Assembly (NCBI RefSeq): GCF_014643835.1
Contig: NZ_BMKD01000013.1
Coordinates: 1 to 64,000, forward strand
Direction of reading: 5' to 3'
Length of the DNA stretch: 64,000 bases
Source: Mucilaginibacter rubeus
Lineage (GTDB): Bacteria; Bacteroidota; Bacteroidia; Sphingobacteriales; Sphingobacteriaceae
Part shown: one piece after another, positions 1 through 15,657 of the stretch
Layout: each line of letters begins with the position of its first letter
Numbering within the stretch: the stretch's first letter is position 1
The notes under the pieces: model-generated
Told to the model about the DNA's origin: nothing
The model's input: only the letters and a program-made list of their open reading frames with translations
Database searches by the model: none
Program-made: the position numbers and the translations under genes

Positions 1-66
1 AGACCTGACCTGATCATCTTTCCCGGCCATACAAATAAAGTTAACACAGGGCATTCTAATAAATAA
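1..66 (+). CDS. 3' end of a coding region cut by the window edge
   Basis: An open frame runs from the first base to a TAA at 64-66 and gives 21 residues ending in NTGHSNK. It lies 32 nt before the next gene in the same direction, so it is probably the upstream member of the same operon. Too little is left to name a family. The visible piece contains PDLII, loosely like PDLII in the DUF1611 domain of the gene at 982-2907, but that is too short to count as homology. Confidence 0.5.
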   Translation, partial: RPDLIIFPGHTNKVNTGHSNK

Positions 67-98
67 CCCGTTCGGGGCCACCCAGCAAATCAATTGAT

Positions 99-989
99 AT
101 GGAAAATACACTTACATCGCAGGAAGAATATATTGAGCGGTTTATCGCAGGGAATACACTATTTCATAAAGGATATACCAATAATTACAGCATCGAACTT
201 GTAAGTGCGTTGATAGATTTGCCGCAGCTTAAAAAACAACGGATAGATGGCCTGGAGCTGCTCAATAATGCCAGCTATAATTTGTGTGATTTTTGTATCA
301 AATGCCTCTCAGCAATCAAGGCATCCGGAATGCTTTCAGGGGCACGGGCTGTTGAGATCAACACAGTACTAAAAAACTGGAAGTACCTGATCGAGGGGGG
401 GAATTCATTTGCTACCTACGATTACGCAGCGGAAATAACCCGATCCATTAAAACATTCGGATATCCTTTTCTCGAAAAACTTCAATCGGCTGAATTTGAG
501 CATATTCCTGCCGCATTTACAGCGATATCTGGAAAGTTCAAATATTTCGTCAGGGTAAGCTGTTTTTTACAGCCGTTTTTTTTCGAAGAGGCATTCTCTA
601 TCGCGCTAAATATTCTGGAGAACAACATTTCGATTTACGCAGCGGTCGAGAGGATAGAGGTAGCTAAAAAAGACTTTCCACTGAGCATCGATAACGGTGA
701 ACCGTTTCCAATCTTTAGTATAATTTTTGACTATAACAAAGTACCGGGCCCCGACGATGGCATAATCAAGCATTTCATCGCACTTTATAATCAAAAAACT
801 CAGCATTTAGGATCCGGCCTTACCACCGAATACCCGTATTCAAAAAATGTAGGGGAGGGGCTGACATTGTCCCAGGGGTTCAAAAACTATAAAAAGTACT
901 TGAAATTAATAGACGAACTGGATCATGTGTATGACGGGTCAGACAATTATGCTTTTTCGTTAACGCTCAATAAGAAATCCAATGATTAA
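99..989 (+). CDS. orphan protein of the biosynthetic cluster (296 aa)
   Basis: I do not recognise a family. The 296-residue protein has no signal peptide or clear membrane segment and looks like a soluble mixed alpha/beta protein. Residues 60-75 carry cysteines (NLCDFCIKC), and a Gly/Pro-rich stretch with VPGPDDG lies near residue 214. Its 3' end overlaps the start of the subtilase-DUF1611 gene by 8 nt, which implies translational coupling and a shared role. It is preceded by a short gap after another coding end. A tailoring enzyme, a precursor-binding protein or an immunity protein are all possible, and nothing in the sequence decides between them. Confidence 0.75.
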   Translation: MENTLTSQEEYIERFIAGNTLFHKGYTNNYSIELVSALIDLPQLKKQRIDGLELLNNASYNLCDFCIKCLSAIKASGMLSGARAVEINTVLKNWKYLIEGGNSFATYDYAAEITRSIKTFGYPFLEKLQSAEFEHIPAAFTAISGKFKYFVRVSCFLQPFFFEEAFSIALNILENNISIYAAVERIEVAKKDFPLSIDNGEPFPIFSIIFDYNKVPGPDDGIIKHFIALYNQKTQHLGSGLTTEYPYSKNVGEGLTLSQGFKNYKKYLKLIDELDHVYDGSDNYAFSLTLNKKSND

Positions 990-2907
990 AATCGCGATAA
1001 TAGACGAAGGCGTTGATGCTGGCCATACACGTTTGCTCGATAGTAAAGTTATTGGCTATACTATCAAAGAGAGCGACGGGAATTTATATAGCCTGGGTAC
1101 AGATCCGCATATGGATGCGACGGGCCATGGAACTGCTATAGCGTCGATCATTCATAAGATAGTGCCTGAAGCCGAACTTCATAGTGTCAGGCTATTTGCT
1201 GCCGGAGGAAAGATCAGCGAACAGCTTTTAACAGAAGGTATCAAGCATTGTCTTAACATTGAGGGGCTAAGGGTGGTCAATATCAGCATGGGAATAGCCG
1301 TAAGCACTCCGTCCTCCGCTTTATTCAATGCCTGCAGAACGCTTTCTGAATCAGGGGTTCTTATCGTTGCTTCATCTCATAATTTTCCGCACGTGGAGTG
1401 CTTTCCTGCCCATTTTCCTTTTGTGTATTCGGTAGGCTGCGGACTTGTCAAAAACAAAAATGAGTACAGTTATAATGAGAACAAAAAAACCAAGGTGTTA
1501 GCGAAAGGTGGCCTGCAAAGGATTGCCTGGGCTGATAACGGCTACAAGATATCGTCGGGAACCAGTTACGCTACAGCTCATTTTACCGGAATCCTATCTC
1601 GTTTGATTATAGACAATGGCCCAAAAAACGAGCAAGAATTAAAGGCGCTGATCATTAGTAACAGTTCAAAAGATCTCGCGGAATTTATTTATATCTCTAA
1701 AAATTATGATATCATCAGTTCAGGAACAAGACAGCTGAACCAGGCAGAGCAGGATGTTTTGGGCAGGAATTTGTTTACACCCGCTAAGATTGATTTTGCT
1801 GAAAAAATAGCTGTATTCCCCTCTTCTGAAAAGGAGATCAGAACGATAATCGAGTTTAGGAACCAGATCCGCGGAGAATTGGTCTTGTCTATCGATTATC
1901 CCAGAAGTATCTCATCAACCACTGGCAAAACCAGCGCTTCAGCATCGGTTTTTTTGGCTATTAATAGGGAGCCGGGAAAAGAGGAACTCGATTTGTTCGA
2001 TACTATCGTGATCGGCTATTTCCTTGATATTCCGGTAGAGTCAAATATTATTTTCGGGAACAGGTTATTGAAAAGCTGCATACTGAGTAACAAAAACTTC
2101 ATCGTTTTTGATAATGATGTATTCGATCACCTGAACCGGCTTGTAAAAGAAATATATCCAGAATATGCCGGCAAAATTCACTTTACCTCCGTCAGGAAAG
2201 CAGTAGTTGATGATATAAAAAATTTCCGTCACTTGCCTAAGATCCAGACTTCAGTATTGGCTTGTGTGGGTACGGGGAGTAAACAGGGTAAGTTCACTAA
2301 CCAAATGAGGGTAAAGGAAATATTATCAGCGCAGGGGTATCGTGTTTCCCAGCTTTCTACTGAACCCCAGGGCGCAGTAGTCGGTTCGGCCTTTACCTTT
2401 CCATTCGGGCATAACGCGAACGTTGAAATCAAGTTCAGAGACTGGACAAGTAACATAGAAACGATATTGAGAGGGATCCAGCACTATAATAAGCCCGACC
2501 TGATCATCACGGGTATCCAGGGGGGGATTTTGCCCAGGGCTTTCAATATGGATACCTCTAAAGCGGGTTCGATCCTAACACCGATACAATATTTATTGGG
2601 GGTGCGCCCCGACGCTATTATTTGCACTATCCACCCTACAGATACTGTTGAACTGGTACAGCAAACCATTCAAACCGTGAAAAACTATTGTAACAGCACT
2701 TGCTTGTTTTGTACGATGAGCCCGGTATACAATGAGCTCAAGAATATCAATAACATGTGGGTAAAGAATTCGCGTGTGTTGGAAAAAGATGAGATGAGGG
2801 CTATCATGGATGATTTTTCTGTCAAATTAGGGACCCCTGTTTTTGATATCATGGATTTGGAGAATGATGAAAAGATATTGAAATGTATAACAAACTTTTT
2901 CTCATGA
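982..2907 (+). CDS. subtilisin-like (S8) protease fused to a DUF1611-type P-loop domain
   Basis: Residues 1-230 form a compact subtilase. The catalytic triad is visible as Asp8 in AIIDEGVD, His49 in GHGTA and Ser195 in SGTSYATAH, with Asn134 as the likely oxyanion residue. There is no signal peptide or propeptide, so it should act in the cytoplasm. Residues about 340-641 match the DUF1611 fold, with a P-loop-like GTGSKQGKF at 430-438. DUF1611 includes DgcN-type proteins linked to D-glutamate N-acylation. The gene overlaps its upstream neighbour by 8 nt. In a LanB locus the protease half could remove a leader peptide. The job of the DUF1611 half is unknown, and the fusion is unusual as far as I know. 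Confidence 0.85.
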   Translation: MIKIAIIDEGVDAGHTRLLDSKVIGYTIKESDGNLYSLGTDPHMDATGHGTAIASIIHKIVPEAELHSVRLFAAGGKISEQLLTEGIKHCLNIEGLRVVNISMGIAVSTPSSALFNACRTLSESGVLIVASSHNFPHVECFPAHFPFVYSVGCGLVKNKNEYSYNENKKTKVLAKGGLQRIAWADNGYKISSGTSYATAHFTGILSRLIIDNGPKNEQELKALIISNSSKDLAEFIYISKNYDIISSGTRQLNQAEQDVLGRNLFTPAKIDFAEKIAVFPSSEKEIRTIIEFRNQIRGELVLSIDYPRSISSTTGKTSASASVFLAINREPGKEELDLFDTIVIGYFLDIPVESNIIFGNRLLKSCILSNKNFIVFDNDVFDHLNRLVKEIYPEYAGKIHFTSVRKAVVDDIKNFRHLPKIQTSVLACVGTGSKQGKFTNQMRVKEILSAQGYRVSQLSTEPQGAVVGSAFTFPFGHNANVEIKFRDWTSNIETILRGIQHYNKPDLIITGIQGGILPRAFNMDTSKAGSILTPIQYLLGVRPDAIICTIHPTDTVELVQQTIQTVKNYCNSTCLFCTMSPVYNELKNINNMWVKNSRVLEKDEMRAIMDDFSVKLGTPVFDIMDLENDEKILKCITNFFS

Positions 2908-2935
2908 AAAATAAAACATAATCAGATAAAGCAAT

Positions 2936-3742
2936 ATGAAGATGTATCAAAACTTCGTCCGTCATGAGCATGTTGGAGAGGCCGATGTTCATACTGCGGA
3001 CCTATCAGCACCATTTAAACTGAAAGGTTATATGGAAAAGTGGCCAGCTTTTAAATTATGGGACAGCTCATTTTTGAAAAAGGAATTTGGCCAGGTGGTG
3101 TTGAACGCAAGCAAACACTCCAATAAGGACTCCATTTCCCGTACCTTCTTGTTAGAAGATTATTTGCAGTATATGAATAAGACACGGGCTGCCAACCCCT
3201 ATTATTTAAAGGACTGTAAATTTCATCTCGGAACGAAAATGGAATCGCACTATACTGCCCCCGATATTTTTAATTGTTGGTATAAAATGATTCCTGCAAA
3301 TCAGCGAAAAACGACTTTGTCCTGGTTGTATATCGGAGCGAAAGGTACTTTTTCCCGGCTGCACCTCGATATCTGGAATACAAGTGCTTGGAACGCTGTG
3401 ATCTCCGGGGCCAAGCTATGGCTTTTTTACCCGCCCGACAACCGGCAATATTTATATAACGGGGCGGTAAACCCCTTTTTTCCCGACCTGGACAAATTTC
3501 CGGGCTTTGCAAATGCCCGACCACTTGTGGCCCTGCAGCGTCCAGGTGAAATTATTTACACGCCAAGTAATTGGTGGCACGCGGTCTATAATCTTGAAAA
3601 AGGCTTGTCGCTAACCGAAAACTTTATAAATGATTCAAACTACACTGAGGTGCTCGAATACTTTAAGGAAAAAAGCCCTAAAAGCTATCAGAGCCTCTTA
3701 GAATTGATCAACCTAAATAAAACTACCGCATCATATGAATGA
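2936..3742 (+). CDS. JmjC/cupin-8 type 2-oxoglutarate and Fe(II) oxygenase
   Basis: The 268-residue protein has a cupin_8/JmjC core. HLD at residues 143-145 and His215 in the motif SNWWHAVYN supply the expected iron ligands. Phe/Trp-rich strands such as WLFYPP follow, as in peptidyl or small-molecule hydroxylases of this family. It carries no signal peptide. The end overlaps the ACP gene by 8 nt, which ties the two in translation. Inference: it hydroxylates a peptide side chain or a carrier-bound acyl/amino-acyl group. The substrate cannot be read from sequence. Confidence 0.85.
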   Translation: MKMYQNFVRHEHVGEADVHTADLSAPFKLKGYMEKWPAFKLWDSSFLKKEFGQVVLNASKHSNKDSISRTFLLEDYLQYMNKTRAANPYYLKDCKFHLGTKMESHYTAPDIFNCWYKMIPANQRKTTLSWLYIGAKGTFSRLHLDIWNTSAWNAVISGAKLWLFYPPDNRQYLYNGAVNPFFPDLDKFPGFANARPLVALQRPGEIIYTPSNWWHAVYNLEKGLSLTENFINDSNYTEVLEYFKEKSPKSYQSLLELINLNKTTASYE

Positions 3743-4019
3743 TCAAATCCATTTAACCGATACCGAAATCAAAAATAAACTACTGGTCATCGTTGATCAG
3801 CTGATCAACGCTCAACCTGAATTGCATAATTCAGATACAATGCTGATCGATGATAAGCTTAATGTGTTAATCAGCGAATCCAGCCAGGCCCTTGTATTCA
3901 TTACAACAATTGAAGATGAATTTGATGTTGAACTGGATGATGACGACATCGATCTGGAGTTTTTTACAGATGTAAATGTCATGACGGCCAGGATAAAACG
4001 GAATTTACAGGATCAGTGA
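3735..4019 (+). CDS. acyl carrier protein-like protein
   Basis: This 94-residue, very acidic protein has the ACP four-helix layout. The hallmark DSL motif is replaced by ESS at residues 48-50, making Ser49 the probable phosphopantetheine site, followed by the usual helix II (QALVFITTIEDEF). It overlaps the JmjC oxygenase gene by 8 nt and sits 9 nt before a holo-ACP synthase gene, so the pair probably forms a private carrier module. It could carry an acyl or aminoacyl group for tailoring. The non-canonical motif leaves some doubt about modification. Confidence 0.8.
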   Translation: MNDQIHLTDTEIKNKLLVIVDQLINAQPELHNSDTMLIDDKLNVLISESSQALVFITTIEDEFDVELDDDDIDLEFFTDVNVMTARIKRNLQDQ

Positions 4020-4028
4020 AATTAAAAT

Positions 4029-4457
4029 ATGCTAAAAATTACATCGGGGGTTGATATTGTTCATATAGCTGAAATCAAAGGCAATATCGAAAAGCATGGT
4101 GAGCGTTATTTAAAACGGGCTTTTAGCCCGCGAGAAATAGCTTATTGCGATTCTAAACCTAACAGGTACCAACATTATGCAGTTAGGATCGCGGCAAAGG
4201 AGGCTGTCATGAAGGCCGTCAAAACAGGTTGGAACAATGGTGTACAATGGAAAAATATTGAAATAGTAAAAAACAGGGACGGGGCGCCGGCATTGAGTTT
4301 TTCTGGGAAGATAAAAGATATTTTGGATGAATCAGGTTTCAACAATCATGATATATCCTTATCTCATAACCAGGAATATGCCGTGGCCTTCGCAATATTT
4401 TATCAGGAAATGATAACCGGTATCGCAGCAGATACGGCCGCTTCCTTACTGAAATGA
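4029..4457 (+). CDS. acpS: holo-[acyl-carrier-protein] synthase (AcpS-type)
   Basis: The 142-residue protein has the AcpS signature: GVDIV with Asp9 near the N-terminus, FSPREIAYC around residue 32, and the AAKEA motif with Glu58 for Mg2+/CoA binding. Late in the chain SLSHNQEYAVAFA is typical of the family. It transfers phosphopantetheine from CoA to an ACP serine. The length is slightly above the usual 120-130 residues. Its position directly after the ACP gene suggests it activates that carrier. It may be a second, cluster-specific AcpS next to a housekeeping copy elsewhere, which this window cannot show. Confidence 0.88.
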   Translation: MLKITSGVDIVHIAEIKGNIEKHGERYLKRAFSPREIAYCDSKPNRYQHYAVRIAAKEAVMKAVKTGWNNGVQWKNIEIVKNRDGAPALSFSGKIKDILDESGFNNHDISLSHNQEYAVAFAIFYQEMITGIAADTAASLLK

Positions 4458-4625
4458 TAACCGTTGAAAAGTGTTTTTCCAAGGGCTTCAGTTTAGGGAG
4501 CCGGAAACGCTGAGGTGTTTATGCAGGCCTAAAATACTGTGATAATTTGTTTTAGATATAGATAACGGAGTGCTGTGCATGGACATTAAATCATCAATGC
4601 ACTCCTTACCAAAGCTTTAAATGGG

Positions 4626-4641
4626 CCGGGCTAAAGCCCGG
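4626..4641. other. short GC hairpin between acpS and the oxygenase gene
   Basis: CCGGGC and GCCCGG flank the loop TAAA as a perfect 6-bp stem. No T-run follows, so it is a weak terminator at best. It could stabilise the upstream mRNA or mark a repeat unit. Confidence 0.4.
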
Positions 4642-4669
4642 TATGACCGATAAAAAATTGACCTGATAT

Positions 4670-5221
4670 ATGGAATTTAAAACCATCACTATTGAACAGC
4701 GGCCAATGTATGTGATTGATAACGCTGTTACGGAAGAAGAGGTTCATGATTTTTATAACCTTGTTACTAATCTGTCATTTACACGAACGGAAAGGGATAA
4801 CCGCGGAGATGCACATTGTATCTTTAATGCCGAATTCATTCCAGAGAAGGTTGAAACCTCGCTTAGGGTAGGAGTTGTTGCAAGGCAGCTGCTCCAAAAG
4901 TTCTTCCCGGACAGCGAGTACCTGTTACAACGCTCCTATATTAATATGAGCCATTACGGAGATATGGCTTACCCGCATAGAGATTGCGCTTTAAGTGCTA
5001 AGGATGTTACGGTATTATACTATGCCAATAAAGACTGGGACTATCGCTGGGGCGGGGAAACAATTTTTTACGAAAACCATGAGTCGGAAAATATAGTAAT
5101 GCCAAAACCCGGGAGGTTTTTAATATTTCCAGGTTTTATTGAACATAAAGGCGCTGTACCTACCCGCGAGTGTGTCAGTTCCAGGTTCACCTTTGCCTTT
5201 AAGTATAAAGAAAGACAATGA
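4670..5221 (+). CDS. 2OG-Fe(II) oxygenase (prolyl-hydroxylase-like)
   Basis: The 183-residue protein shows the double-stranded beta-helix dioxygenase motif. His103-x-Asp105 lies in YPHRD, His159 in EHKGAVP, and Arg166 or Arg172 probably binds the 2-oxoglutarate carboxylate. WGGETIFY and PKPGRFLIFPG are typical of prolyl 4-hydroxylase-like enzymes acting on peptides or small molecules. A 212-nt gap, including a GC-rich hairpin at 4626-4641, separates it from acpS, so it may begin a second transcript or be regulated separately. This is the second oxygenase of the cluster and belongs to a different subfamily from the JmjC protein. Confidence 0.85.
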   Translation: MEFKTITIEQRPMYVIDNAVTEEEVHDFYNLVTNLSFTRTERDNRGDAHCIFNAEFIPEKVETSLRVGVVARQLLQKFFPDSEYLLQRSYINMSHYGDMAYPHRDCALSAKDVTVLYYANKDWDYRWGGETIFYENHESENIVMPKPGRFLIFPGFIEHKGAVPTRECVSSRFTFAFKYKERQ

Positions 5222-5290
5222 AAACGGTCAGGAGAAAAAGTCTTAATTAATTGGAGCCCCCGGCAGGCCGCGGATTGGATATAAACAGGA

Positions 5291-6997
5291 ATGAAAATGA
5301 AGAGCAGGAAGTCTTTAAAGCTTATAAACAGATACCTTAAATATTTCAGGCCGTATATTTTTGATATTTTCTTATTGATAGTGTTGATGATTATTTCAAG
5401 CGCGGGTTCACTGGCTACACCGTACGTCCTGAAAATCATCATTGACCAAATCTTCCCCCAAGGCGATTTTACCCAGCTAATTACGATACTCCTGGTACTG
5501 GTACTGGTTTACATATTAAGGATCGTATGCAATCTATGGACTGATATCCTGGATAACAAGATCAGTCAGAATGTAGTAGGCAAGATCAGGATCGATATGT
5601 TAAATTCCTTGTTTTTAAAGGATATTGGTTTCTTTAAAAATGTCAATACGGGTGACGTGCTTTTTACCATAATTGACGATGTAAGAAATATACAAACAAC
5701 ATTATCTTCTTTAATATTGAGTTTGTTGAACGATGTGTTCGTAGTTATCGGTATCATCGTCATGCTTTCGGTTCTGAACTTCAAACTCACGCTGATCAGT
5801 TTGGTCATCATCCCGATGATCCTGTATAGCATCAGGAGATTTGCACCTTTGATCCAAAAACATTTTAAGGAGGTTCAGGAATCGGAAGGTTTATTGAATA
5901 ATTTTTTTCTGCAATGCTTTAGAAACATAAGGGTCATAAAGAGCTATGAAGCTTTCAGTTTCGAAAACAAGAAGCTGTTCAATATTAATTCGCAGATATA
6001 CAGCAGTAATAAAAGCAGCACTTTTTTCAGTTCAATAAATGGTAGTATAGTCACTTTTTTTATCGCCATAGGACCTATCCTGGTTTTGATAATTGGCGGG
6101 AAAAGTGTTTTTGCCGGAGCATTGACACTGGGCGCATTAATTGCTTTTATCCAGTATATCAACAGGCTTTATTCGCCGGCAATAAATATCATGAGAACCT
6201 ATAACCAGATCAATAAGGCAATTATTTCAATGGAAAGGGTGTTGCCTTATCTTCCGATTGATCAAACAGAAGCTGCGGTTCTCCATAAAGCAGTTCTTGC
6301 TGAAGACAGAATAGCTTTTGATAAATTGATTTTCGAGAACGTATCCTACCGCATTGATGAAGAAGAAATCGTGTCAGGCCTAAATGCCGAATTCAAAAAG
6401 GGGCATATCTACGGGATAATTGGCCCAAGCGGTTCAGGGAAAAGTACAATAATTAATTTGATCTGTGGTTTCCTGTCCCCCTCTGAGGGAATGATAAAAG
6501 TCGATGATTCTGTATGTATCAGCCAGATAAAGAATTGGACATCCAATCTCGGATTAATCGAAAAGGAAAACCAGTTGTTTAGCGATACTATTATTTCCAA
6601 CCTGAAATACGGCAGTGATGATGCCAGTGAAGCGGATGTGGTCAAGGCGGTTGAGCATGCCATGTTTAAAGAGGTTCTTGATCACCGCATCGTTAATTAT
6701 GATTCTGTGATCACCGACACCGGCTCAACATTATCAGACGGTCAAAAACAGCGTATTTCTATCGCCAGAGCTTTAGTCAAGGCTCCACAGATCATTATTT
6801 TCGATGAAGCCACCGCTTCGCTTGACCCAAGCCTCGAGCGTTCGATCATTAACAATTTAAAAAAGCATTACACGGATTCGATCGTCATCATCATCACGCA
6901 CCGGGTTTCGTCCCTCCAGTCCTTTGACTTCGTTTATGCCATCGAAAAAGGAACGTTTGCTAAGGAAGGTTTACCGGTTTTATTTACCAATAATTAA
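5291..6997 (+). CDS. ABC transporter, fused membrane and ATPase domains (peptide-exporter type)
   Basis: The 568-residue half transporter has about six membrane helices in residues 20-310. The ATPase has Walker A GPSGSGKS at 378-385, signature LSDGQ at 481-485, Walker B IIIFDE with Glu506, and the switch His537. There is no N-terminal C39 peptidase, so leader cleavage must be done elsewhere, perhaps by the S8 protein. The Q-loop reads LIEKENQLF, with Lys425 where Gln is nearly invariant. It follows the oxygenase by 69 nt and precedes the GT9-like gene by 6 nt. The likely role is export of the cluster product. Confidence 0.88.
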   Translation: MKMKSRKSLKLINRYLKYFRPYIFDIFLLIVLMIISSAGSLATPYVLKIIIDQIFPQGDFTQLITILLVLVLVYILRIVCNLWTDILDNKISQNVVGKIRIDMLNSLFLKDIGFFKNVNTGDVLFTIIDDVRNIQTTLSSLILSLLNDVFVVIGIIVMLSVLNFKLTLISLVIIPMILYSIRRFAPLIQKHFKEVQESEGLLNNFFLQCFRNIRVIKSYEAFSFENKKLFNINSQIYSSNKSSTFFSSINGSIVTFFIAIGPILVLIIGGKSVFAGALTLGALIAFIQYINRLYSPAINIMRTYNQINKAIISMERVLPYLPIDQTEAAVLHKAVLAEDRIAFDKLIFENVSYRIDEEEIVSGLNAEFKKGHIYGIIGPSGSGKSTIINLICGFLSPSEGMIKVDDSVCISQIKNWTSNLGLIEKENQLFSDTIISNLKYGSDDASEADVVKAVEHAMFKEVLDHRIVNYDSVITDTGSTLSDGQKQRISIARALVKAPQIIIFDEATASLDPSLERSIINNLKKHYTDSIVIIITHRVSSLQSFDFVYAIEKGTFAKEGLPVLFTNN

Positions 6998-7003
6998 CAC
7001 TTT

Positions 7004-8836
7004 ATGGAGAATTTACACGATAAGCGGGACATGGATATGCTCAAGCAGCTGGCAAGCCGCAAGAGCGCGCTTGGTACCCATGATCAGATAAAAAAAGTTT
7101 TAGTTGTTTGCGGCCTTTGTGATCTGATCACACAATGTAATGTGGATATCCAGATGATCACACAATTGTACATCCCTATCTATATATTCTCCCAGGTTAA
7201 AACAAATGTCACTAAGGTAACCGTATTGGATGAAATAATGACTGATTATGATACCTTATGGAAAAGCAATAGTGAACCTATCAGTTTTATTAATCCGTAC
7301 CTCTCTAAAAATACTTTAGAAAATATTGATCTTCTGAGTTATGATCTGATCATTTTTTACCATAAATACGAGCATCAGCTACTATTGAAACTGGCTGCCG
7401 AGCTTGACGTAAAGAGCCGGCTCAGAGATGATGAGCTCCCGGTATTTGCATCTATGAAAGATACAAACGAAAAGAACCGGCAAAGCGTATTTACAGACCT
7501 GAACACTTTTATAAACACCATAGGGTTTGACGCGGCGGAAAAAGAGAGAATAAAGAAATTTAAAGAAACTCTTTTTTCAAACTATTTAGGGTTTAACACT
7601 TTACAACAGGAAGCGCTGTACCAGAACTTAATTCAAACGATCGTTGATTTAAATACGGCGCGCTCCGGCGGAAATTTTAAACGTATCCTCCTGATCGACG
7701 ATCAAAAGCGCAAGTTTTACATTGGTGATACCTACTTCTGGCTTCAAAATATCAGAAAAAATATACTCAGCGCTTATCCGGATGCCACGATAACCGTGAA
7801 CTGCCGCAGTCAGGAAAAAATAGAAAAGATCACGAATATTTTCAGCGATGATTTCGATGCAAGGATAAATATAATCAACAGTTCATTCGAGGAATTACCT
7901 TTTCATGATTTTGACCTGGTGTTGTGTGAAAACGATTCAGTCATCTATTTATTATTCTATATCGTTTCCCATAAGAACCATTTTTTCAATCAGGTAAGTT
8001 TATACAGTTACGTTAACACGTTTATCAAACAAGTTAGCGAGTTTTCTGCGCTGAACTATAAATATTTATACGATAAACGTATTGCCGGAGTGGACCCTAT
8101 TGCCCTGATGCTTCAAAATAAGCGAGATGCTGAAATAATGCTCAGGGAGGTTGAAAAAAATTGGGCGGCCGCCTGGCTTGCTGAAAAAGGCCTGAGAACC
8201 GGCGAATGCCTGAATGTACTGGTTTTCAATTCCTCGGCCGGGACAAAGATGCTCACAGAAGCCATGGCAACCGAACTGATCCGCATCGTTGCTTCCCAGG
8301 AAAATAATAAAGTATTGTTATTTGATGAGGATAAACAAAACCTGTCACAAAAATTAAGGTCAGAACTTCAGGAAAATATTTGGAAAAAAGTTATTGTTTT
8401 CGAAGGCCGTGGCTTAAGACAGGCCATGAGTATGATCGCACATCCCCAGGTGAAATTGGTCATGGGCCCCTGCACAGGCGTTATGCACCTTGCCAATGGT
8501 GTTTATCAACATAAGCTTAATCAAAAGGAGATCAAAAAGTCTCTATTACCAGACCTGATCGTTTATACAGGAAACTGGAAAGAGTTGCAGCGGTACTACC
8601 ATCCCAAGCATTGGTGGACCGGGACATTGATCAGGTGCATTGTTTACTCAAAATCAAAGGATGTAGCGGAGGGTGAGTTCAGGGACTTGGCATTGTTTGA
8701 TGACGGGATCGAATCTTACTGTGAACAGAGCCTGCCGCTTCAACAAATAACGCCGGGCGTTTTTACAGCATATTTTAAAAAGAAAGTATCCCGCCAGCCA
8801 CTAACCCCGGCAGGATCCAGCAACCAGGGTATTTGA
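7004..8836 (+). CDS. GT9/heptosyltransferase-like glycosyltransferase with extra N-terminal region
   Basis: The 610-residue protein ends with a GT-B fold resembling GT9. A first Rossmann half begins near residue 226 (RILLIDD, then IGDTYFW), and the donor-site half contains GPCTGVMHLANGV at 488-500, close to the GT9 motif DTGxMHLA. Residues 1-215 form an additional region that I do not recognise. It starts 6 nt after the ABC transporter and is followed by a DUF4254 gene, a pairing common for GT9 genes in Bacteroidota. It probably glycosylates the cluster product or a linked surface glycan. The GT9 assignment is from motif reading only. Confidence 0.65.
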   Translation: MENLHDKRDMDMLKQLASRKSALGTHDQIKKVLVVCGLCDLITQCNVDIQMITQLYIPIYIFSQVKTNVTKVTVLDEIMTDYDTLWKSNSEPISFINPYLSKNTLENIDLLSYDLIIFYHKYEHQLLLKLAAELDVKSRLRDDELPVFASMKDTNEKNRQSVFTDLNTFINTIGFDAAEKERIKKFKETLFSNYLGFNTLQQEALYQNLIQTIVDLNTARSGGNFKRILLIDDQKRKFYIGDTYFWLQNIRKNILSAYPDATITVNCRSQEKIEKITNIFSDDFDARINIINSSFEELPFHDFDLVLCENDSVIYLLFYIVSHKNHFFNQVSLYSYVNTFIKQVSEFSALNYKYLYDKRIAGVDPIALMLQNKRDAEIMLREVEKNWAAAWLAEKGLRTGECLNVLVFNSSAGTKMLTEAMATELIRIVASQENNKVLLFDEDKQNLSQKLRSELQENIWKKVIVFEGRGLRQAMSMIAHPQVKLVMGPCTGVMHLANGVYQHKLNQKEIKKSLLPDLIVYTGNWKELQRYYHPKHWWTGTLIRCIVYSKSKDVAEGEFRDLALFDDGIESYCEQSLPLQQITPGVFTAYFKKKVSRQPLTPAGSSNQGI

Positions 8837-8876
8837 TCTTATTGCGCAAATAATATTAAACTAATCAAGTAATACT

Positions 8877-9500
8877 ATGAATCCTAATTTTGCATCATCG
8901 GCAATCCGTATTTTTTCTGCTGCGATAAACGATTATCATAGCGAAACAAACCCTCAAAAAATAAACCTGAGTGACCGGTACAGGCACACAAACTTGGAAC
9001 AATTACTTTACGATAAATGTTGGACAGATTTGGTGCAATGGCATAAGGAAGACGATATCAGGCTCCCTGAAATAGAGCCCCAACATGCATTGGAATTAAA
9101 AAGGCAGATAGATCAGCTCAATCAAGTCAGAAATGACATAGTTGAGTGTATTGACGAGACCTTCGGAAAGCAATTTGACGGCATTGTGCCTGTAAATTTT
9201 GCTGAAATGAATACCGAAAGCCCTGCCTGGGCTGTTGACAGGCTTTGCATTCTTTGTATTAAAGCTTTTCATATGAACGAGCAATTGTTCAGAGAGGACG
9301 TTGATACTTTACATATTAACACCTGTAAGAATAAGCTGATCATTTTAAATGAACAAATTGCAGATTTGTCCAAAAGCGTGGATAAACTACTGGCCGATAT
9401 ACAAAAAGGGCTCAAGGTTATGAAGATCTACCGGCAAATGAAAATGTACAACAATCCGGATTTAAACCCTGTGCTATATGGGGCGCAAAAGCCCGCATAA
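8877..9500 (+). CDS. DUF4254 protein
   Basis: The 207-residue helical protein has the DUF4254 pattern: WTDLVQWHKEDDIR followed by LKRQIDQLNQVRNDIVECID. In Bacteroidota these proteins are usually encoded beside GT9 glycosyltransferases, as here. Their biochemical role is not established. No signal peptide is present, and coiled-coil propensity is high in the second half (residues 120-180). It follows the GT9-like gene by 40 nt in the same direction, and an accessory role to that enzyme is inferred. Confidence 0.8.
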   Translation: MNPNFASSAIRIFSAAINDYHSETNPQKINLSDRYRHTNLEQLLYDKCWTDLVQWHKEDDIRLPEIEPQHALELKRQIDQLNQVRNDIVECIDETFGKQFDGIVPVNFAEMNTESPAWAVDRLCILCIKAFHMNEQLFREDVDTLHINTCKNKLIILNEQIADLSKSVDKLLADIQKGLKVMKIYRQMKMYNNPDLNPVLYGAQKPA

Positions 9501-9594
9501 AATACTATTTAAAGTGCTATCGTAAATATTATTTGATATTTATTCAGACTCTGGTTATTTTGAGTGATATATAACCAAGAATAGATCTGATCTT

Positions 9595-12500
9595 ATGTTT
9601 ACGTTTCACCCGAAAGTTTTTTTACGTGCCCCTCTTTTAAGTTCCGAAAATTATAATGAAACGCGTTTAGTGGAATTACTGAAAATAAGTTTTTTTCAAA
9701 GCAGTATTTTTTTAGCGAATTATGAATTCTATGAACACCTGAAAAAAAAGGATTTTTCTTACGCCTTGCTTTCAGATAAGGAAAAAAAAACGATTTGGAG
9801 TTACTATAACAGGATGAGTTTTCGTTCAACACCCTTTGGCGCATTTGCTTCGTTCAGTATACTTAACTGGCAGGACCATGCTGATCAAATTACGCTCCAG
9901 GATAAAACGACTTCGAAATTACATCTTTTCGTCGATCACGAGCTAACGTTGAAACTAACGGAAAAACTGCGGCAGGGAACTGGTTATTTCGGAGCCTGGG
10001 CGGTTAACCCCACCGTTTACCGCCTCAATAAGGAATTAAGATATATCAGGACAATGCCTGCCGACGGCAATAGCAGGACCTCGTCTCATTTAAGTGCTGT
10101 TGAAAATAACAGGGTGATCAGCGCAATCATCAAATTGCTAAGATCAAAACGGCAATCATTCGATGAGTTGATCCTTTATTTGATAGATGAATTTAGTTTT
10201 AGCCGTCTGGACGCGGCGGCCTACATTCATATGCTCAGTGAATCTAAGCTAATTCTTTCAGCAATGGAAGGTAGCGTATTAGGGAAAGATTATTTTTTGC
10301 AGTTATTGGATTGTGTAAATGAGGGGAACCCCTCAACTATAAAGCAAAGCCGGGAAATACTGGCAGAAATGAGTAGTGTTTCATTCCCTGATCCCCTTAC
10401 TTTACAAAGTCTCACAGATGGTATTGAAAAAATATTTCCCGGCAAAGAAATGAAGATAGGAAAACGGTTCTTTTATTCGGTGCTGGAACGGACCGCAAGC
10501 GGAGGCCTGGACGTCCGCTATCAGCAACAGATCATGGATGTCCTTCCTCTGCTCCAGCGTTTGACTACCGGCAGCAAGCCACCTGCATTGAATACTTTTA
10601 TCGGGAAATTCAAAACCAAATTTGAAGGCCGGAAAATTCCGTTGCTCCAGGCTTTGGATCCGGACATTGGTATTGACTACGATGGACGGGCATTTTCCTT
10701 GAATGAAGATAGCCTTACGGAAAACATTTTTTTTAAACGTAAGGCAGTCGAAGAAGCTTTGATCAATTGGACACCTGTCCACAAGCTTTTGTCGGGCAAA
10801 TGTCTGAACCTTTATCCCGGCCAGGAGATTTTAATTGCCGACGAAGACCTGAGTATTGATGATCAGGGAAATAACCTGCCCTTGCCACCGTCAATCTCAG
10901 TAATGTTTTCGTTAACACCCTGCAATTTGATCCTTGAAGCGATAGGGGGAGTTTCAGCTACCGCTATTACCGGGCGGTTCACTATTTGCAATGCCGATCT
11001 GCTCGAAGTTAATAAACAAATAGCCCGGGCCGAACAGGATAACAACCCGGAAGTTGTTTTTGCCGAAGTCAATTGCATTGTTAACTCGCATATTGACAAT
11101 ATAAACAGGCGGGAGCCTGTATACATTTATGAAATACCCGTCAACACCGTTTCTAACCTTGAAACAGCAAATCAGCTGTTATTGTCGGATATGTATTTAT
11201 CCGTTATCAATGATGAGTTGATCCTGGAATCAAAAAAACTGAAAAAAAGGATCATTCCGAGGATAAGTTCGGCTTATAATTATCAAAGCAACCAGTTGGG
11301 GATCTGCCGGCTTTTGGGAGATCTGCAGTATCAAGGTTTACAAACTTCGCTCAAACTGGACTTTGAAAGGGTTTTACCGGATTTGAGTTATTATCCGAGG
11401 ATACGTTACAAGGATGTAATTATTAGTCTGGCCATGTGGAAGTTATCTGTAGAAGAAATTGTAAGCCTTACAGATAAAAATGATGATGATAATCTTGATG
11501 AACTTGCGCGGTTTCTGAAAACCAAGAAAATTCCGGAGAAGCTATCCATCAAACGTTCGGACCAGTTGTTGACATTTGATTTAGGCCATAGGGATGAATC
11601 TTTATTTTTTTTAAGATCCATAAAGGGAAACTTTCCGGTGATCATCCAGGAGTATTTGTCTGCGATGCCAGTTGTGATAAACCCAGATAAAAAGGCCCTT
11701 GCCCATCAGTTTGTAGCAGCTTTGATCAATAGTAATTCCGTTTACAAGAAGCAGGATCTGACACCGTTCCCCAAAAGCATCCCTGAAAGAGATTTTGTAC
11801 TGGGTAGTCAGTGGCTTTTTTTAAAAATATACTGCCAGCCCTCTACAAGTAACCTCTTGCTTACTAAATATCTGTTGCCATTTTTAAAAGATATAATAAA
11901 TAAAGAAGCAGAAACCTGGTTCTTCATCCGCTATACTGATCCTGATTTTCATATTCGCCTGCGTTTATTGGTAAAAGACAAAAAATTTATTTCCGATCTG
12001 CTGGTCAGGCTCAGGTCCCGGCTATCGGAGAGTTTAAATTTTAATGTAGTAAGGGATTACAAGGCCGATATGTACAAAAGGGAAATAGAACGATATGGTG
12101 CAGATACTATACAGGTGGCCGAGCGTATTTTTCACGCAAGCTCATTATTTATATTGCACTATATCAGGAAGACCCAATTGCCTGGTTTCAGGTACCCATA
12201 TTATAATTTAGGGCTGATTTCCACACTGCAGATCATCCGGCAGTTTTTCCCTGACATTCAAACGCAGTATGTTTTCGCATGCACTGTTATCAATAATTTT
12301 TACACGGAATATGATGATCCTAAGCTATTGAAATATGAAATGGATTTGAAGTTCAGGGAAATCAAAGGGGAAGTATATGATTTATTACGAAAAGAAACTT
12401 TTTTGGGGGAGCTAAAGCTTATCAGGTTTAAAAATCTGATGGACAGTGAGATCAATGAATATTTGTCTTCAGGCGAAAAAACAGAAGCAAGAAAGAGCAA

Positions 12501-12642
12501 GTTTGCTGCCGATATTATCCATATGCACCTCAACCGGCTCTTTGTTTCCAGTCAGCGTGAACAGGAATTCATGGTTTATTTCGTGATCATGAAATACCTG
12601 GTCACAGAAATTAATATCCGGAAAGCACCTCTTGATAATTGA
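9595..12642 (+). CDS. lantibiotic dehydratase (LanB type, full length)
   Basis: At 1015 residues this is the length of a complete class I dehydratase. The N-terminal glutamylation domain begins FHPKVFLRAPLLS and carries YNRMSFRSTPFGAF near residues 71-84, a hallmark with arginines used in glutamyl-tRNA-dependent Ser/Thr activation. The C-terminal elimination (SpaB_C, thiopeptide-type) domain contains FIRYTDPDFHIRLR near residues 776-792. Both halves are present, so it should make dehydroamino acids rather than only add amino acids. No LanC cyclase is seen nearby. A 94-nt AT-rich gap separates it from the DUF4254 gene. The substrate peptide is not visible in this window. Confidence 0.92.
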   Translation: MFTFHPKVFLRAPLLSSENYNETRLVELLKISFFQSSIFLANYEFYEHLKKKDFSYALLSDKEKKTIWSYYNRMSFRSTPFGAFASFSILNWQDHADQITLQDKTTSKLHLFVDHELTLKLTEKLRQGTGYFGAWAVNPTVYRLNKELRYIRTMPADGNSRTSSHLSAVENNRVISAIIKLLRSKRQSFDELILYLIDEFSFSRLDAAAYIHMLSESKLILSAMEGSVLGKDYFLQLLDCVNEGNPSTIKQSREILAEMSSVSFPDPLTLQSLTDGIEKIFPGKEMKIGKRFFYSVLERTASGGLDVRYQQQIMDVLPLLQRLTTGSKPPALNTFIGKFKTKFEGRKIPLLQALDPDIGIDYDGRAFSLNEDSLTENIFFKRKAVEEALINWTPVHKLLSGKCLNLYPGQEILIADEDLSIDDQGNNLPLPPSISVMFSLTPCNLILEAIGGVSATAITGRFTICNADLLEVNKQIARAEQDNNPEVVFAEVNCIVNSHIDNINRREPVYIYEIPVNTVSNLETANQLLLSDMYLSVINDELILESKKLKKRIIPRISSAYNYQSNQLGICRLLGDLQYQGLQTSLKLDFERVLPDLSYYPRIRYKDVIISLAMWKLSVEEIVSLTDKNDDDNLDELARFLKTKKIPEKLSIKRSDQLLTFDLGHRDESLFFLRSIKGNFPVIIQEYLSAMPVVINPDKKALAHQFVAALINSNSVYKKQDLTPFPKSIPERDFVLGSQWLFLKIYCQPSTSNLLLTKYLLPFLKDIINKEAETWFFIRYTDPDFHIRLRLLVKDKKFISDLLVRLRSRLSESLNFNVVRDYKADMYKREIERYGADTIQVAERIFHASSLFILHYIRKTQLPGFRYPYYNLGLISTLQIIRQFFPDIQTQYVFACTVINNFYTEYDDPKLLKYEMDLKFREIKGEVYDLLRKETFLGELKLIRFKNLMDSEINEYLSSGEKTEARKSKFAADIIHMHLNRLFVSSQREQEFMVYFVIMKYLVTEINIRKAPLDN

Positions 12643-12700
12643 TTCAGGCGCAAACTTGAATTTACAGTAAAATACAAACGTGTTTTATTTCGATCAAAAA

Positions 12701-13582
12701 ATGAAAACCAAGATCCTTTTGTACAACAACTTTTGGGAAATGGAATGGAACCTTCCTTCCATTTTAGTTCGTGATGGATTCGAGTTAATTAATCAAAGAG
12801 CTCATTTTAATGAGGCCGATGTAGTTGTTTTTCATATGCCCAATATGGATAAAGCTGAACTGGAGGCGCTAAAATCCCAAAAAAGAGAAACCCAATTATG
12901 GGTGTTCTTTTCTATGGAATGCAACTTACACTATGAATGGCACTCGGAGAAAGCAATAAGGGATCTTTTCGAGATCACAATGACATATAGTAATAAATCA
13001 GACATCCCTGTACCTTATTTGTACCCGGGATATGCGAAGCAGGTTTTGAACGCACCTGTTTCAAAACATCATAATGTTAACGCATTTATATCAAGTGGAT
13101 TTGATAAAAGCGATAGGTTGAGGATACTCAGCGAGCTGATGGGTTTCATCGAAATCGATTCATATGGCAAGCAGTTAAATAATAAGTCCCTTGAGGGAGA
13201 CCAGGGCCCGTCAACGAAAGCGCAAATAATATCCCAATATAAGTTTACGATCGCATTTGAAAATGCAATTGCCGAAGACTATGTTACCGAAAAATTTTTT
13301 GAACCACTAATTGCCGGGTCTGTCCCGGTATATCTCGGGGCGCCCAATATCGATGATTTCGCTCCTGGCGATCATTGTTATGTAAATGTCAGTTCCTTTT
13401 CATCTGTAAAGGAACTCGCGCTGCATCTTGTAAACTGCTGTAATGATGATACCCAGTATCAGCAATATTTAAACTGGAAGAATAAGCCACTGAAACAAAG
13501 TTTTATGCAGCGCCTCGAACTTGTAAAAAACAGGTTGTTCTTACGTCTCTGTGATTATCTGAATGAACGGTTAAAAGAATAA
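12701..13582 (+). CDS. GT10 alpha-1,3-fucosyltransferase-like protein
   Basis: This protein of about 293 residues has the GT10 signature. KFTIAFEN is followed by EDYVTEKFFEPLIAGSVPVYLG, which contains the donor-binding E-x-x-x-T-E-K-F pattern. These enzymes transfer fucose or a related sugar from GDP-sugar. I place the start at ATG 12701 (MKTKILLYNN); a GTG at 12680 in the same frame would add seven residues. It follows the LanB gene by about 60 nt, so it may glycosylate the modified peptide or a surface glycan. The acceptor cannot be predicted. Confidence 0.85.
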   Translation: MKTKILLYNNFWEMEWNLPSILVRDGFELINQRAHFNEADVVVFHMPNMDKAELEALKSQKRETQLWVFFSMECNLHYEWHSEKAIRDLFEITMTYSNKSDIPVPYLYPGYAKQVLNAPVSKHHNVNAFISSGFDKSDRLRILSELMGFIEIDSYGKQLNNKSLEGDQGPSTKAQIISQYKFTIAFENAIAEDYVTEKFFEPLIAGSVPVYLGAPNIDDFAPGDHCYVNVSSFSSVKELALHLVNCCNDDTQYQQYLNWKNKPLKQSFMQRLELVKNRLFLRLCDYLNERLKE

Positions 13583-13902
13583 CGTCCCCTGATCATATTA
13601 CCGCATATATTTTGTCCTTTTTTCGGTAATGCCAAAGAAATGTTGAAGATCTGCCTTATCGTTTTTCCTGCATGCCCCATCCTGTTGTTGGTAACGCCAG
13701 AAACGCTGTTGGTGTAAAGTCTTTTATAACCAATATACTAATTATTAATCTTGGAAATAAACGATGACTTGCGCAGCGGGCGTGTTTTTACTGCATGAGC
13801 AAAAGTCCTGATGTAATGTGGCGCACCCCATTGCCGAATCGCACTGAAGCGGTTGTAGACAAGCTCCTCATCGCATTTGTGATAATCGAACAAACCGCAC
13901 AT

Positions 13903-14487
13903 ATGGCCTATATAAAAGCAATCACTGACGAAGATCTGATCACTCTCCTTAAAAAGGACAGTAAAGAGGCATTTACAGAAATTTACAGGCGCTATGGTGA
14001 TAGTTTAACCGGTTTTGCGATGTCGAAACTCCATGATATGGATGAAGCCAGGGATCTTTTACACGATTTTTTTATCAAGTTTTGGGAAAATCGGCGATCG
14101 CTTGATGTACACGATAATTTAAAGTCTTATTTATTTCGCGCTGTACGTTACAAAATAGTAGATATTATCAGGCGGAATATTTCAAAAAGGTCCTATGAAT
14201 CATTGTTGCAGTCATTGGCGGATATGTATGAACCCTCTGTTGAATCGCAGATAGAGGCCGAAGAATTGTCGCTGGCGCTCGTTAAGCTGGTCGACAATTT
14301 ATCCCCCAGAGTTGGCTTGATTTATAAGCTGAGCAGACACCAGAACCATACGATCAGCGAAATTGCGACGATGTTGAATTTAAGCCAGCAAACTGTGAAA
14401 AATCAATTAGGCAGCGCACTAAAATACCTCCGTCAATCAATCAAATATATCAGCCTGATATTGTTGTTACCCTATTTTCTCCTCTAG
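13903..14487 (+). CDS. ECF-type RNA polymerase sigma factor
   Basis: Region 2 is seen in RYGDSLTGFAMSKLHDMDEARDLLHDFFIKFW and following residues, and region 4 in the helix-turn-helix TISEIATMLNLSQQTVKNQL. I prefer the ATG at 13903 (MAYIKAITDEDLI), which gives a typical length of 194 residues. An in-frame ATG at 13795 would add 36 atypical residues. The protein ends in a hydrophobic tail (ISLILLLPYFLL). It is followed by a FecR anti-sigma factor and a TonB-dependent receptor, the standard cell-surface-signalling trio of Bacteroidota. Confidence 0.9.
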   Translation: MAYIKAITDEDLITLLKKDSKEAFTEIYRRYGDSLTGFAMSKLHDMDEARDLLHDFFIKFWENRRSLDVHDNLKSYLFRAVRYKIVDIIRRNISKRSYESLLQSLADMYEPSVESQIEAEELSLALVKLVDNLSPRVGLIYKLSRHQNHTISEIATMLNLSQQTVKNQLGSALKYLRQSIKYISLILLLPYFLL

Positions 14488-14568
14488 CTAGAATAATTCT
14501 GCAAAAAAAACAAAAATTGTTATAGTACTATCACACGTTTCATCCGACTACTGTGAAAATGCATCAGT

Positions 14569-15549
14569 ATGAGCCGGAACGATATCGCCGAATTATTAAC
14601 ACGCTACCTAGAAGGGCAAACTACGCCGACTGAAAACGAAATGTTGGAGTATTGGCTGGAGCATTATAACCTCAATAATTATTGGAAGCGTCTGGATGAA
14701 GCTTCCCGGAAAGAATGGTTGAACTCTTTATTCAGGGATGTTGAAAGCCATATTTTAGCCCCCGAAAGAAACATTAAAAGACCGGGCGCCAGCCCTGTTG
14801 TAAGATGGGCGGCTATTGCAGCCGTGTTTCTTGCTTTTCTCGTTTTAACCGCTAAAATGGTTTCGATAAAAAACGGACCGGTAGAACAAACATCAGAAGG
14901 GCTTAAAATCCCCCTGACAGGAAATCACAAAGTCGTTCTCCATGACGGAAGCAAAGTTTGGGCTAATTCAGGTGCAACTTTGCGGTACCTCGAAAACTTC
15001 AACGTGAAAACCCGGGAGGTTTTTTTAACAGGAGAAGCATACTTTGATGTTCAGCATCAACCATCAAAACCATTTTTGGTACACACCGGTAAGGTTGACG
15101 TTACTGTTTTGGGAACTGCATTCAATATAAAATCAGGCGGTGGTTCAAATAAAGTAATAGTAACAGTTGCCAGGGGAAGGGTCAAGGTGAGCGAAGGGAA
15201 CAAACTCATCGGTTTTCTGAACACTAACGAGCAAGTCATTTTTAACACGGCCAATCATCAATACAGCCAATCCGCTATTAATGCTGCGGAAGTCATAAAG
15301 TGGCTGGAAAACGATCTGAATTTTAACGATGTAACATTTGGCCAGGCGGCAATAAAGCTACAGGAAAGGTTCAGGGTCATCATTCGCTTTCAAAATGACA
15401 AAATAAAAAGTTCCGTTTTTTCGGGTACTGCCCTACGGGGAAATGATTTAGAAGATATCCTTAAAGTTTTGTGTGCTTTCAACCATGCTTGTTACAAAAA
15501 AGAAGCAGATGGAAGCATCCTGATCTTTGAAAACAATATTAAAAATTAA
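14569..15549 (+). CDS. FecR-family anti-sigma factor
   Basis: The 326-residue protein has a short cytoplasmic N-terminal region, one membrane helix at about residues 79-96, a periplasmic FecR domain (VVLHDGSKVWANSGATLRY, then GEAYFDV) and a C-terminal DUF4974 domain. It should hold the preceding ECF sigma factor and receive a signal from the STN domain of the following receptor. The gaps of 81 nt to the sigma gene and 108 nt to the receptor fit a single transcription unit. Confidence 0.92.
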   Translation: MSRNDIAELLTRYLEGQTTPTENEMLEYWLEHYNLNNYWKRLDEASRKEWLNSLFRDVESHILAPERNIKRPGASPVVRWAAIAAVFLAFLVLTAKMVSIKNGPVEQTSEGLKIPLTGNHKVVLHDGSKVWANSGATLRYLENFNVKTREVFLTGEAYFDVQHQPSKPFLVHTGKVDVTVLGTAFNIKSGGGSNKVIVTVARGRVKVSEGNKLIGFLNTNEQVIFNTANHQYSQSAINAAEVIKWLENDLNFNDVTFGQAAIKLQERFRVIIRFQNDKIKSSVFSGTALRGNDLEDILKVLCAFNHACYKKEADGSILIFENNIKN

Positions 15550-15657
15550 AAATATTAAATAAGTGCAGGGGTAATAATATTTATTACTCAATTTAGAAAC
15601 AGATTTTTGATCAATCCTCCAAACGTTATGCTATCTATCCTATATAAAAAACAATTA

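Follow-up and report, generated by a model that had tools for sequence, protein, structure and literature searches.

The 64,000 nucleotides analysed here, referred to as the window, are positions 1 to 64,000 of contig NZ_BMKD01000013.1 of Mucilaginibacter rubeus, and their left end carries a run of genes around a full-length LanB dehydratase. A sequence-only reading had filed this run as a lanthipeptide-like locus. All of the genes that it named, from LanB to the subtilase-DUF1611 fusion, were found co-directional on the forward strand between 982 and 13582, with families assigned by Pfam and NCBIfam, and to them we added the end of an FlmE gene (1-66), an open reading frame (ORF), ORF1 (99-989), and a FecI-FecR-outer membrane protein (OMP) unit (13795-18414). 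The filing itself did not survive, as the majority of the genes make up the core of a radical S-adenosylmethionine (SAM) cluster of the Flm/Ohk type for a ribosomally synthesized and posttranslationally modified peptide (RiPP), with the FlmE end at 1-66 and, in the syntenic genome G751, the maturase and precursors just to the left. The features are as follows (2OG, 2-oxoglutarate; ABC, ATP-binding cassette; GT, glycosyltransferase).

1..66, + strand, 3' end of a radical SAM/SPASM maturase gene of the FlmE/OhkG kind; 21 codons, reading RPDLIIFPGHTNKVNTGHSNK, and the stop
99..989, + strand, ORF1, 296 amino acids, of a family of unknown function that precedes the subtilase in Flm clusters
982..2907, + strand, subtilase fused to a TIGR04066/DUF1611-like domain (PF00082 1.2e-18, PF07755 8.8e-9)
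2936..3742, + strand, JmjC/Cupin_8 2OG-Fe(II) oxygenase, JMJD6-like (Pfam Cupin_8 and JmjC, 3.7e-21)
3735..4019, + strand, acyl carrier protein (ACP; PF00550 0.026, below its cut-off)
4029..4457, + strand, holo-ACP synthase AcpS (PF01648 2e-18; TIGR00556 and TIGR00516 above cut-off)
4670..5221, + strand, FlmC-family 2OG-Fe(II) oxygenase (NF052475 294.8 bits, cut-off 240)
5291..6997, + strand, ABC exporter with membrane and ATPase domains (Pfam 3e-42, 3.5e-29)
7004..8836, + strand, GT9-like glycosyltransferase of the GT-B fold that has a long N-terminal region (weak Pfam match, 0.078)
8877..9500, + strand, DUF4254 protein (PF14063 5.5e-51)
9595..12642, + strand, full-length LanB dehydratase (N domain 9.1e-71, C domain 2.1e-49)
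12680..13582, + strand, GT10, fucosyltransferase family (PF00852 3.3e-34, PF17039 1.9e-16)
13795..18414, + strand, FecI-type sigma factor, FecR-type anti-sigma factor and OMP_b-brl_3 outer membrane protein (Pfam; syntenic with G751)

The Flm cluster belongs to Flagellimonas meridianipacifica and the Ohk cluster to Ohtaekwangia koreensis. In the available parts of Pfeiffer et al. 2025 (PMC12703449), the arginases FlmR and OhkR convert Arg to ornithine (Orn) in precursors ending DD(I/V)LF and the product structures were not determined; the main text has the word 'radical' once, for PapB, and mentions no dehydratase, carrier or oxygenase. There is a strong case that the window is the 3' part of such a 'DD(I/V)LF' cluster, because it has the FlmE end and FlmC, because of the genes upstream in G751, and because its core is common to eight Flm loci. 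The cluster fills window 1 to 13.6 kb and probably reaches 18.4 kb.

When the 149 genomes of the genus of G001, the nearest genome available for comparison, were searched with the subtilase-fusion protein, three matched: G751 with 87% identity over the full length, G536 with 28% over residues 1 to 577, and G692 with the subtilase part alone. In G751, the block from ORF1 to GT10 stands in the same order with 76 to 88% protein identity, and the synteny extends through FecI, FecR and the OMP to window 18414. The DNA alignment starts at nucleotide 1 of the window (81% identity), and the product of window 1-66 is identical to the last 21 residues of G751 FlmE. That FlmE, directly upstream, scores 719.5 bits with NF052473 (the FlmE/OhkG family; cut-off 500). 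Two peptides, of 63 and 60 residues, precede it and score 61.0 and 61.9 bits with the FlmA family (cut-off 30). The 60-residue peptide and FlmE are duplicated, the copies being 99.5% alike over 1.9 kb; copy one precedes DUF2807, a condensation-domain protein, a putative GT2 (a label given without a family scan), an arginase (PF12640 1.1e-16) and an S41 protease, and copy two precedes ORF1. The genome of the window presumably shares this left flank. The first 17 codons of the G751 DUF2807 gene (L012 7758-8519) resemble those of ORF1 (88%), an apparent join left by the FlmA-FlmE duplication. Since the recurrence of these codons is explained by the duplicated segment, ORF1 was rejected as a precursor.

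Another feature adjoining the Flm cluster of G751 is a separate, divergent class I lanthipeptide operon of LanA, LanC, LanB2 and a JmjC-like gene (L012 13586-19176), whose LanA scores 22 bits with lant_leader_L1a, at its cut-off. The sequence-only reading had proposed that a LanC and a lantibiotic precursor directly upstream would make the locus a conventional one. A LanA-like peptide and a LanC do lie upstream in G751, but in this divergent operon with a LanB of its own. That reading had also noted the lack of a visible LanC or precursor, and here it was correct: LanC was absent from window 1-30000 (tblastn, one LanC query, E<=1e-4), neither an FlmA-type peptide nor a peptide of the Thr-rich TDPT type described below was present across the 64 kb, and no peptide arginase (PF12640) was found by Pfam among the scanned window genes. 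The first 19 kb hold 23 small ORFs between genes, of which three match G751 (E<=0.001); all three are Cys-free, and one of them runs into FlmC on the opposite strand.

The gene block is not a chance assembly, because it is whole in G751 and because the ratio of nonsynonymous to synonymous substitution rates (dN/dS) is 0.05 to 0.15 for the 13 block genes for which it was computed (GT10 not among them), with LanB at 0.109. The possibility that ACP, oxygenases and GTs were chance neighbours had been raised before, and it was not borne out: all are kept in the G751 block, and JmjC, FlmC and ACP recur in eight, seven and five of the eight Flm loci, respectively.

These loci came from a two-pattern scan for FlmE in 84,980 species genomes, which returned 31 loci and which relatives without these patterns would escape. 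The published flm locus is among them (L016), and its precursors match the published FlmA1-3 in length and Arg positions if FlmA1 starts at an inner ATG. It contains FlmA1-3, FlmE, FlmC, arginase, S41, ORF1, subtilase fusion, JmjC, ACP, AcpS and ABC exporter. An AraC-type regulator ORF also lies in flm (L016 7993-8997; PF12833 8.4e-16), and its C-terminal end matches FlmA in the same frame (38% over 55 residues, E 1.4e-4). The core was compared across eight loci with FlmE at 41% identity or above (L016-L023, flm included), with flanks of 10 kb, extended on one side in the case of L016 and L018-L021; the loci and their longer pieces were searched with tblastn and with profiles built from the matches themselves, so that profile E-values are inflated. 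Besides JmjC, the subtilase is present in all eight (the long fusion in at least five; L020 has the subtilase alone), as is the ABC exporter, seen for L018 only in the longer piece. S41 is present in seven, with a weak profile match in L017, the arginase in six, ORF1 in four, GT9-like in three and AcpS in one, and L023 adds a partial profile match to the ACP count. By tblastn and profiles within the flanks covered, DUF4254 and GT10 were found in none of the eight, and LanB was in none of their operons as far as the flanks reach. LanB and GT10 are thus additions to the Flm operon, as far as seen. In flm itself there is no LanB within 10 kb upstream or about 28 kb downstream of FlmE; in L019, the contig also holds a LanB on the upstream side, separated from FlmE by about 10 kb and by a LytTR-kinase pair that adjoins the LanB.

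The Flm family is rare: of the genomes sampled, one of 301 from the taxonomic family and none of 395 from the class had an FlmE above cut-off. The same sets gave no subtilase fusion (0/395, E<=1e-20), no FlmC above cut-off (0/395) and no ORF1 (0/301). A single-sequence LanB scan of genome contigs gave no match, and searches of plasmids turned up either no match or only matches to the subtilase domain and distant ones to LanB. The FlmC-like gene of G308 (L005) lies in a setting without other window genes. A second FlmE-like subtype (L013, L024, L025, L027) comes with the subtilase fusion, an ABC protein and an enzyme resembling tryptophan halogenases, which is a DUF6734 protein in three of the four loci, and its GYS-rich precursors end in D-[DE]-[VI]-LF.

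The LanB of the window aligns with NisB over residues 23 to 1007 of 1015, including the RSTPFG, HIRLR, ERYG and IIH stretches, which we take to hold catalytic residues. It has a complete elimination domain (PF14028 2.1e-49; TIGR03891 165.5 bits, cut-off 48.45), which peptide aminoacyl-tRNA ligases (PEARLs) are not known to have. A tree of 31 LanBs, which has several long branches and an only partly resolved order within the clade, places the window LanB in a clade of 10 rows (100/100 support), where L001 (the LanB of L006) and L097 are its sister pair (89/85, below the starred level). In all eight clade rows outside the window lineage, a histidine kinase-LytTR regulator pair adjoins LanB (in X19 with one gene between regulator and kinase), and none of these loci has a LanC within about 8 kb. 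Pfam scans found PF06580 in 3/3 kinases and LytTR plus receiver domains in 4/4 regulators. More widely, 28 LanB stretches (26 of about 20 kb and two long loci) comprised 15 with LanC and 13 with the kinase-LytTR pair and no LanC, the long G751 locus holding both LanB kinds. From these neighbourhoods, this LanB clade appears to work without LanC.

LanB genes are present in 14 of 15 searched genomes that carry FlmE-type loci, and in three of them (G751, G765, G774) a LanB and an FlmE-type gene are no more than 20 kb apart (expected 0.30, P 2.9e-3, taking all LanB genes). This co-occurrence statistic is weak, because it was set up post hoc, the LanB of G774 (L028) falls outside the window clade, with no TDPT match, and P is 0.035 for two or more. 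Clade LanBs near FlmE clusters are seen in two genomes, G751 and G765.

Among the small ORFs around the kinase-type LanBs is one for a Thr-rich peptide, whose start lies next to that of the kinase gene and which runs the other way. The TDPT motif describing it (T, S or G followed by D, an optional P, and T or S in the later part of the peptide, four or more of the 12 residues that follow being Ser/Thr) was scanned over 3,241 ORFs. It was found in 8 of 14 kinase-type loci, divergent from the kinase and about 1 to 144 bp from its start (some starts are approximate), namely in seven of the eight clade rows outside the window lineage and in the G751 Flm locus, whose cluster head carries a peptide-kinase-LytTR unit. 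Fourteen LanC-type loci gave five scattered matches, none beside a kinase start, the one in L114 being a lanthipeptide-like precursor, and 20 other pieces (19 from Flm-type loci and one from G001) gave none. Against shuffled sequences, the G751 peptide resembles those of L006, L096, L095, L097, L098 and L094 with z of 3.5 to 6.9, and it is nearest to L006 (score 85 against a shuffled mean of 35.5). Nine TDPT peptides scanned with NCBIfam matched no family, and that of G751 had no Pfam match either. The peptide-kinase-LytTR-LanB cassettes can occur on their own, with neither LanC nor any of the queried Flm-type genes beside them, save a distant ABC match in one. In some stand-alone cassettes, a protein of 370 to 397 amino acids lies near the TDPT peptide (L006 6828-7937, L097 5828-7018, L096 about 4983-5669); the L006 and L097 proteins matched nothing in Pfam. 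In the literature titles and the beginnings of abstracts among the matches listed, which did not extend to the cluster tables in the supplement of PMC12703449, neither a TDPT cassette nor an Flm cluster with a LanB was seen.

The G751 genome encodes three LanBs of the clade and as many TDPT-type peptides, and the LanB embedded in the Flm operon is the only one of the three with no adjacent kinase unit of its own. Because of this, and because the cluster-head peptide has its closest counterpart in L006, whose LanB is in the sister pair of the window LanB, the window-type LanB probably pairs with the cluster-head TDPT peptide. Five of the eight TDPT peptides are Cys-free and three have one Cys; together with the absence of LanC from the eight other clade loci, this lends support to the earlier suggestion that dehydroamino acids are used without lanthionine rings.

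Taken together, we give a probability of about 0.6 to a composite RiPP cluster, in which the Flm enzymes act on FlmA and a LanC-less LanB dehydrates a TDPT peptide. The chemistry throughout, the substrate of LanB and the left flank are deduced from what could be seen directly, which is gene content, synteny, family membership, the LanB clade and its neighbourhood pattern. An FlmA-type peptide would be encoded just left of the window, and FlmE would crosslink or otherwise alter it; an Arg of FlmA may be converted to Orn. JmjC and FlmC would hydroxylate the FlmA product, the GTs would glycosylate it, and a group bound to the ACP might be transferred by a stand-alone condensation protein. The subtilase would then remove the leader and the ABC protein export the product. 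LanB, for its part, would glutamylate Thr and Ser of the TDPT peptide and then eliminate, and with no LanC and little or no Cys the dehydroamino acids would stay, giving a ring-free, dehydrobutyrine-rich peptide. The delivery of an acyl group on the ACP, proposed before for a LanB product, is possible for the Flm part, as a stand-alone condensation-domain protein is present in both flm and G751, but not for LanB, because the ACP occurs in five of the eight Flm operons that lack LanB, and partially in a sixth.

Several observations count against the composite cluster. The TDPT motif was written only after the peptides were known, three of the eight peptides contain a Cys, and similarity to the G751 peptide is only z 1.8 for X19 and z 1.0 for L093, the locus whose clade member, L049, lacks the motif. 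The kinase-LytTR pair is not exclusive to LanC-less loci, as L105 and L116 are LanC-type LanBs that also have it. The TDPT peptide of G751 is encoded in the same direction as the neighbouring LanA-LanC-LanB2 operon, so that LanB2 could be its dehydratase, and the Flm-embedded LanB, between DUF4254 and GT10, is about 23 kb away and may act on FlmA. Finally, the left flank of the window's own genome is read from G751 only.

The alternative that best survives, which we consider possible and somewhat unlikely, makes LanB a tailoring enzyme of the Flm pathway: it would dehydrate Thr/Ser of the FlmA core (e.g., in GSGTDC or DEDSLLF), and the dehydroamino acids would be kept beside the radical SAM modification. 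Its position speaks for this, as LanB lies inside the operon with gaps of 94 bp to DUF4254 and 37 bp to GT10, in the same place in G751 at 79% identity, and the G751 FlmA peptides have conserved Thr and Ser near two Cys. However, the core of flm, where the operon lacks LanB, is nearly the same (CREFGSGTTCR versus CREFGSGTDCR in G751), LanB is missing from all eight other Flm operons as far as seen, and the LanB clade travels with the kinase, LytTR regulator and TDPT peptide. A lanthipeptide-like locus of its own, with a LanB-modified peptide to which the ACP and GTs add an acyl or sugar group, would account for a full LanB, ACP, AcpS and GTs side by side, but JmjC, FlmC, ACP, subtilase and ABC exporter recur together where operons lack LanB, and the FlmE end at nucleotides 1-66 has FlmA-FlmE as its upstream counterpart in G751; we regard it as highly improbable. 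Least credible of all is a LanB that acts like a PEARL or on an ACP-bound substrate like SnaE, a LanB-like protein that forms amide bonds in a nonribosomal peptide synthetase-polyketide synthase setting (PMC10769383, as far as available), for although ACP shares the operon with LanB and such amide-bond-forming enzymes are known, the elimination domain is complete and aligns with NisB.

Returning to the composite cluster, the kinase-LytTR pair suggests that the TDPT peptide may be sensed. A tentative and on balance doubtful extension is an agr-like signalling system of Bacteroidota, in which the LanB-dehydrated TDPT peptide would be exported and sensed by the kinase, and the LytTR regulator would switch on a costly RiPP pathway, here Flm. 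It fits because cassettes stand alone and because clade LanBs lie near FlmE in G751 and G765; its odds are lowered because the G774 neighbourhood is outside the clade and without a TDPT peptide.

For the individual proteins, ORF1 had no family above cut-off in Pfam and NCBIfam scans; its identity is 80% in G751 and 20 to 31% in L016, L017, L018 and L023. Its model (predicted local distance difference test score, pLDDT, 84) had no significant fold match in the PDB by Foldseek. Several of the insignificant matches were phosphothreonine lyases and class III lanthipeptide synthetases (E >=0.1). A relationship to phosphothreonine lyases or LanKC lyases was rejected (probability at most 0.95, no match under E 0.08, template modelling score by query below 0.3) and is a lead only. 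The subtilase fusion matches QhpE (3e-29) and TIGR04066 (1.5e-18), each below the NCBIfam cut-off. D8, H49 and S195 are invariant among 10 aligned sequences, the window included, and by eye there is no obvious signal peptide; the protein is likely a leader peptidase. By sequence, the closest solved structure to JmjC in the PDB is JMJD6 (1.1e-23). In the ACP, the S-E-S motif is invariant across seven aligned sequences, the window included.

The model of the GT9-like protein (pLDDT 71) matches ADP-heptosyltransferase II (E 2.4e-9). The DUF4254 protein is the probable partner of the GT9-like enzyme; the pair is also found in L026, and relatives of GT9-like occur in both L026 and L028. In these two loci (L026 17552-19996, L028 17601-20033), GT9-like is fused to a C-terminal domain that by eye resembles a family-25 glycosyltransferase. 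Among the compared loci, a full-length GT10 is present only in the window and G751, the L024 match being 49 amino acids long.

The FecI-FecR-OMP unit probably belongs to the Flm cluster, where it may act in reception or export. In 7 of 14 other loci, relatives of the OMP gave long matches in the same direction; this is weak evidence, because the OMP_b-brl_3 family is large. To the right, window 18674-18746 holds a tRNA-Lys 3' end fragment and a downstream inverted repeat, 92% identical to an intact tRNA-Lys and its flank in G001. The fragment sits between the G751-syntenic block (to 18414) and a G001-syntenic block (from 20009), a position as expected for the edge of an integrated island. Just outside the cluster, on the minus strand, is a short ORF with a Zeta-toxin-like P-loop domain (19065-19505; PF06414 5.4e-8).

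The locus is a real, well-kept Flm/Ohk cluster with an added LanC-less LanB and sugar enzymes. For the orphan Flm/Ohk family, it supplies a conserved enzyme set that can be reconstituted (radical SAM enzyme, two 2OG oxygenases, carrier protein, subtilase and exporter), and it shows that a member of the family has acquired a dehydratase and glycosyltransferases. It also brings out a LanB branch that is apparently LanC-free and would act on Thr-rich peptides beside a sensor pair. If this is true, lantibiotic dehydratases would here be makers of dehydropeptides or signals rather than of lanthionine rings.

Four known systems can be compared. In agr-type signalling, AgrB is the peptide-modifying enzyme; the LanB cassettes are alike in that a peptide, a modifying enzyme, a histidine kinase and a LytTR regulator adjoin, and they differ in having LanB for AgrB, a Gram-negative host and a PF06580-type kinase, with signalling a candidate only. 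With the class I lanthipeptide system (NisB-NisC), the window shares a full-length LanB with both domains, whereas LanC is missing from window 1-30 kb and from the eight other clade loci, and the candidate substrates have 0 or 1 Cys. The CLI_3235/SacP23 clusters of Firmicutes consist, in the available parts of PMC10731318 and PMC4573289, of a radical SAM enzyme (TIGR04068), TIGR04066, the ACP-related TIGR04069, an S8 protease and an ABC protein. The window is similar in its radical SAM enzyme, TIGR04066-like domain, carrier protein, subtilase and ABC protein, but its subtilase and TIGR04066 parts are fused and it has extra oxygenases, GTs and LanB. SacP23-type filing was rejected on NCBIfam scores below cut-off: TIGR04066 gave 66.9 bits in the window (cut-off 200), and TIGR04069 was matched by one of seven ACPs (E 0.099). 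The closest likeness in gene content is to flm/ohk (PMC12703449, available in part), compared through the flm locus L016 and not the ohk locus. The window shares with it the FlmE end, FlmC, ORF1, the subtilase-TIGR04066 fusion, JmjC, ACP, AcpS and the ABC exporter, and through G751 also FlmA, arginase and S41; unlike flm, which has no GT9-like gene, the window and G751 add LanB, DUF4254, GT10 and the GT9-like enzyme.

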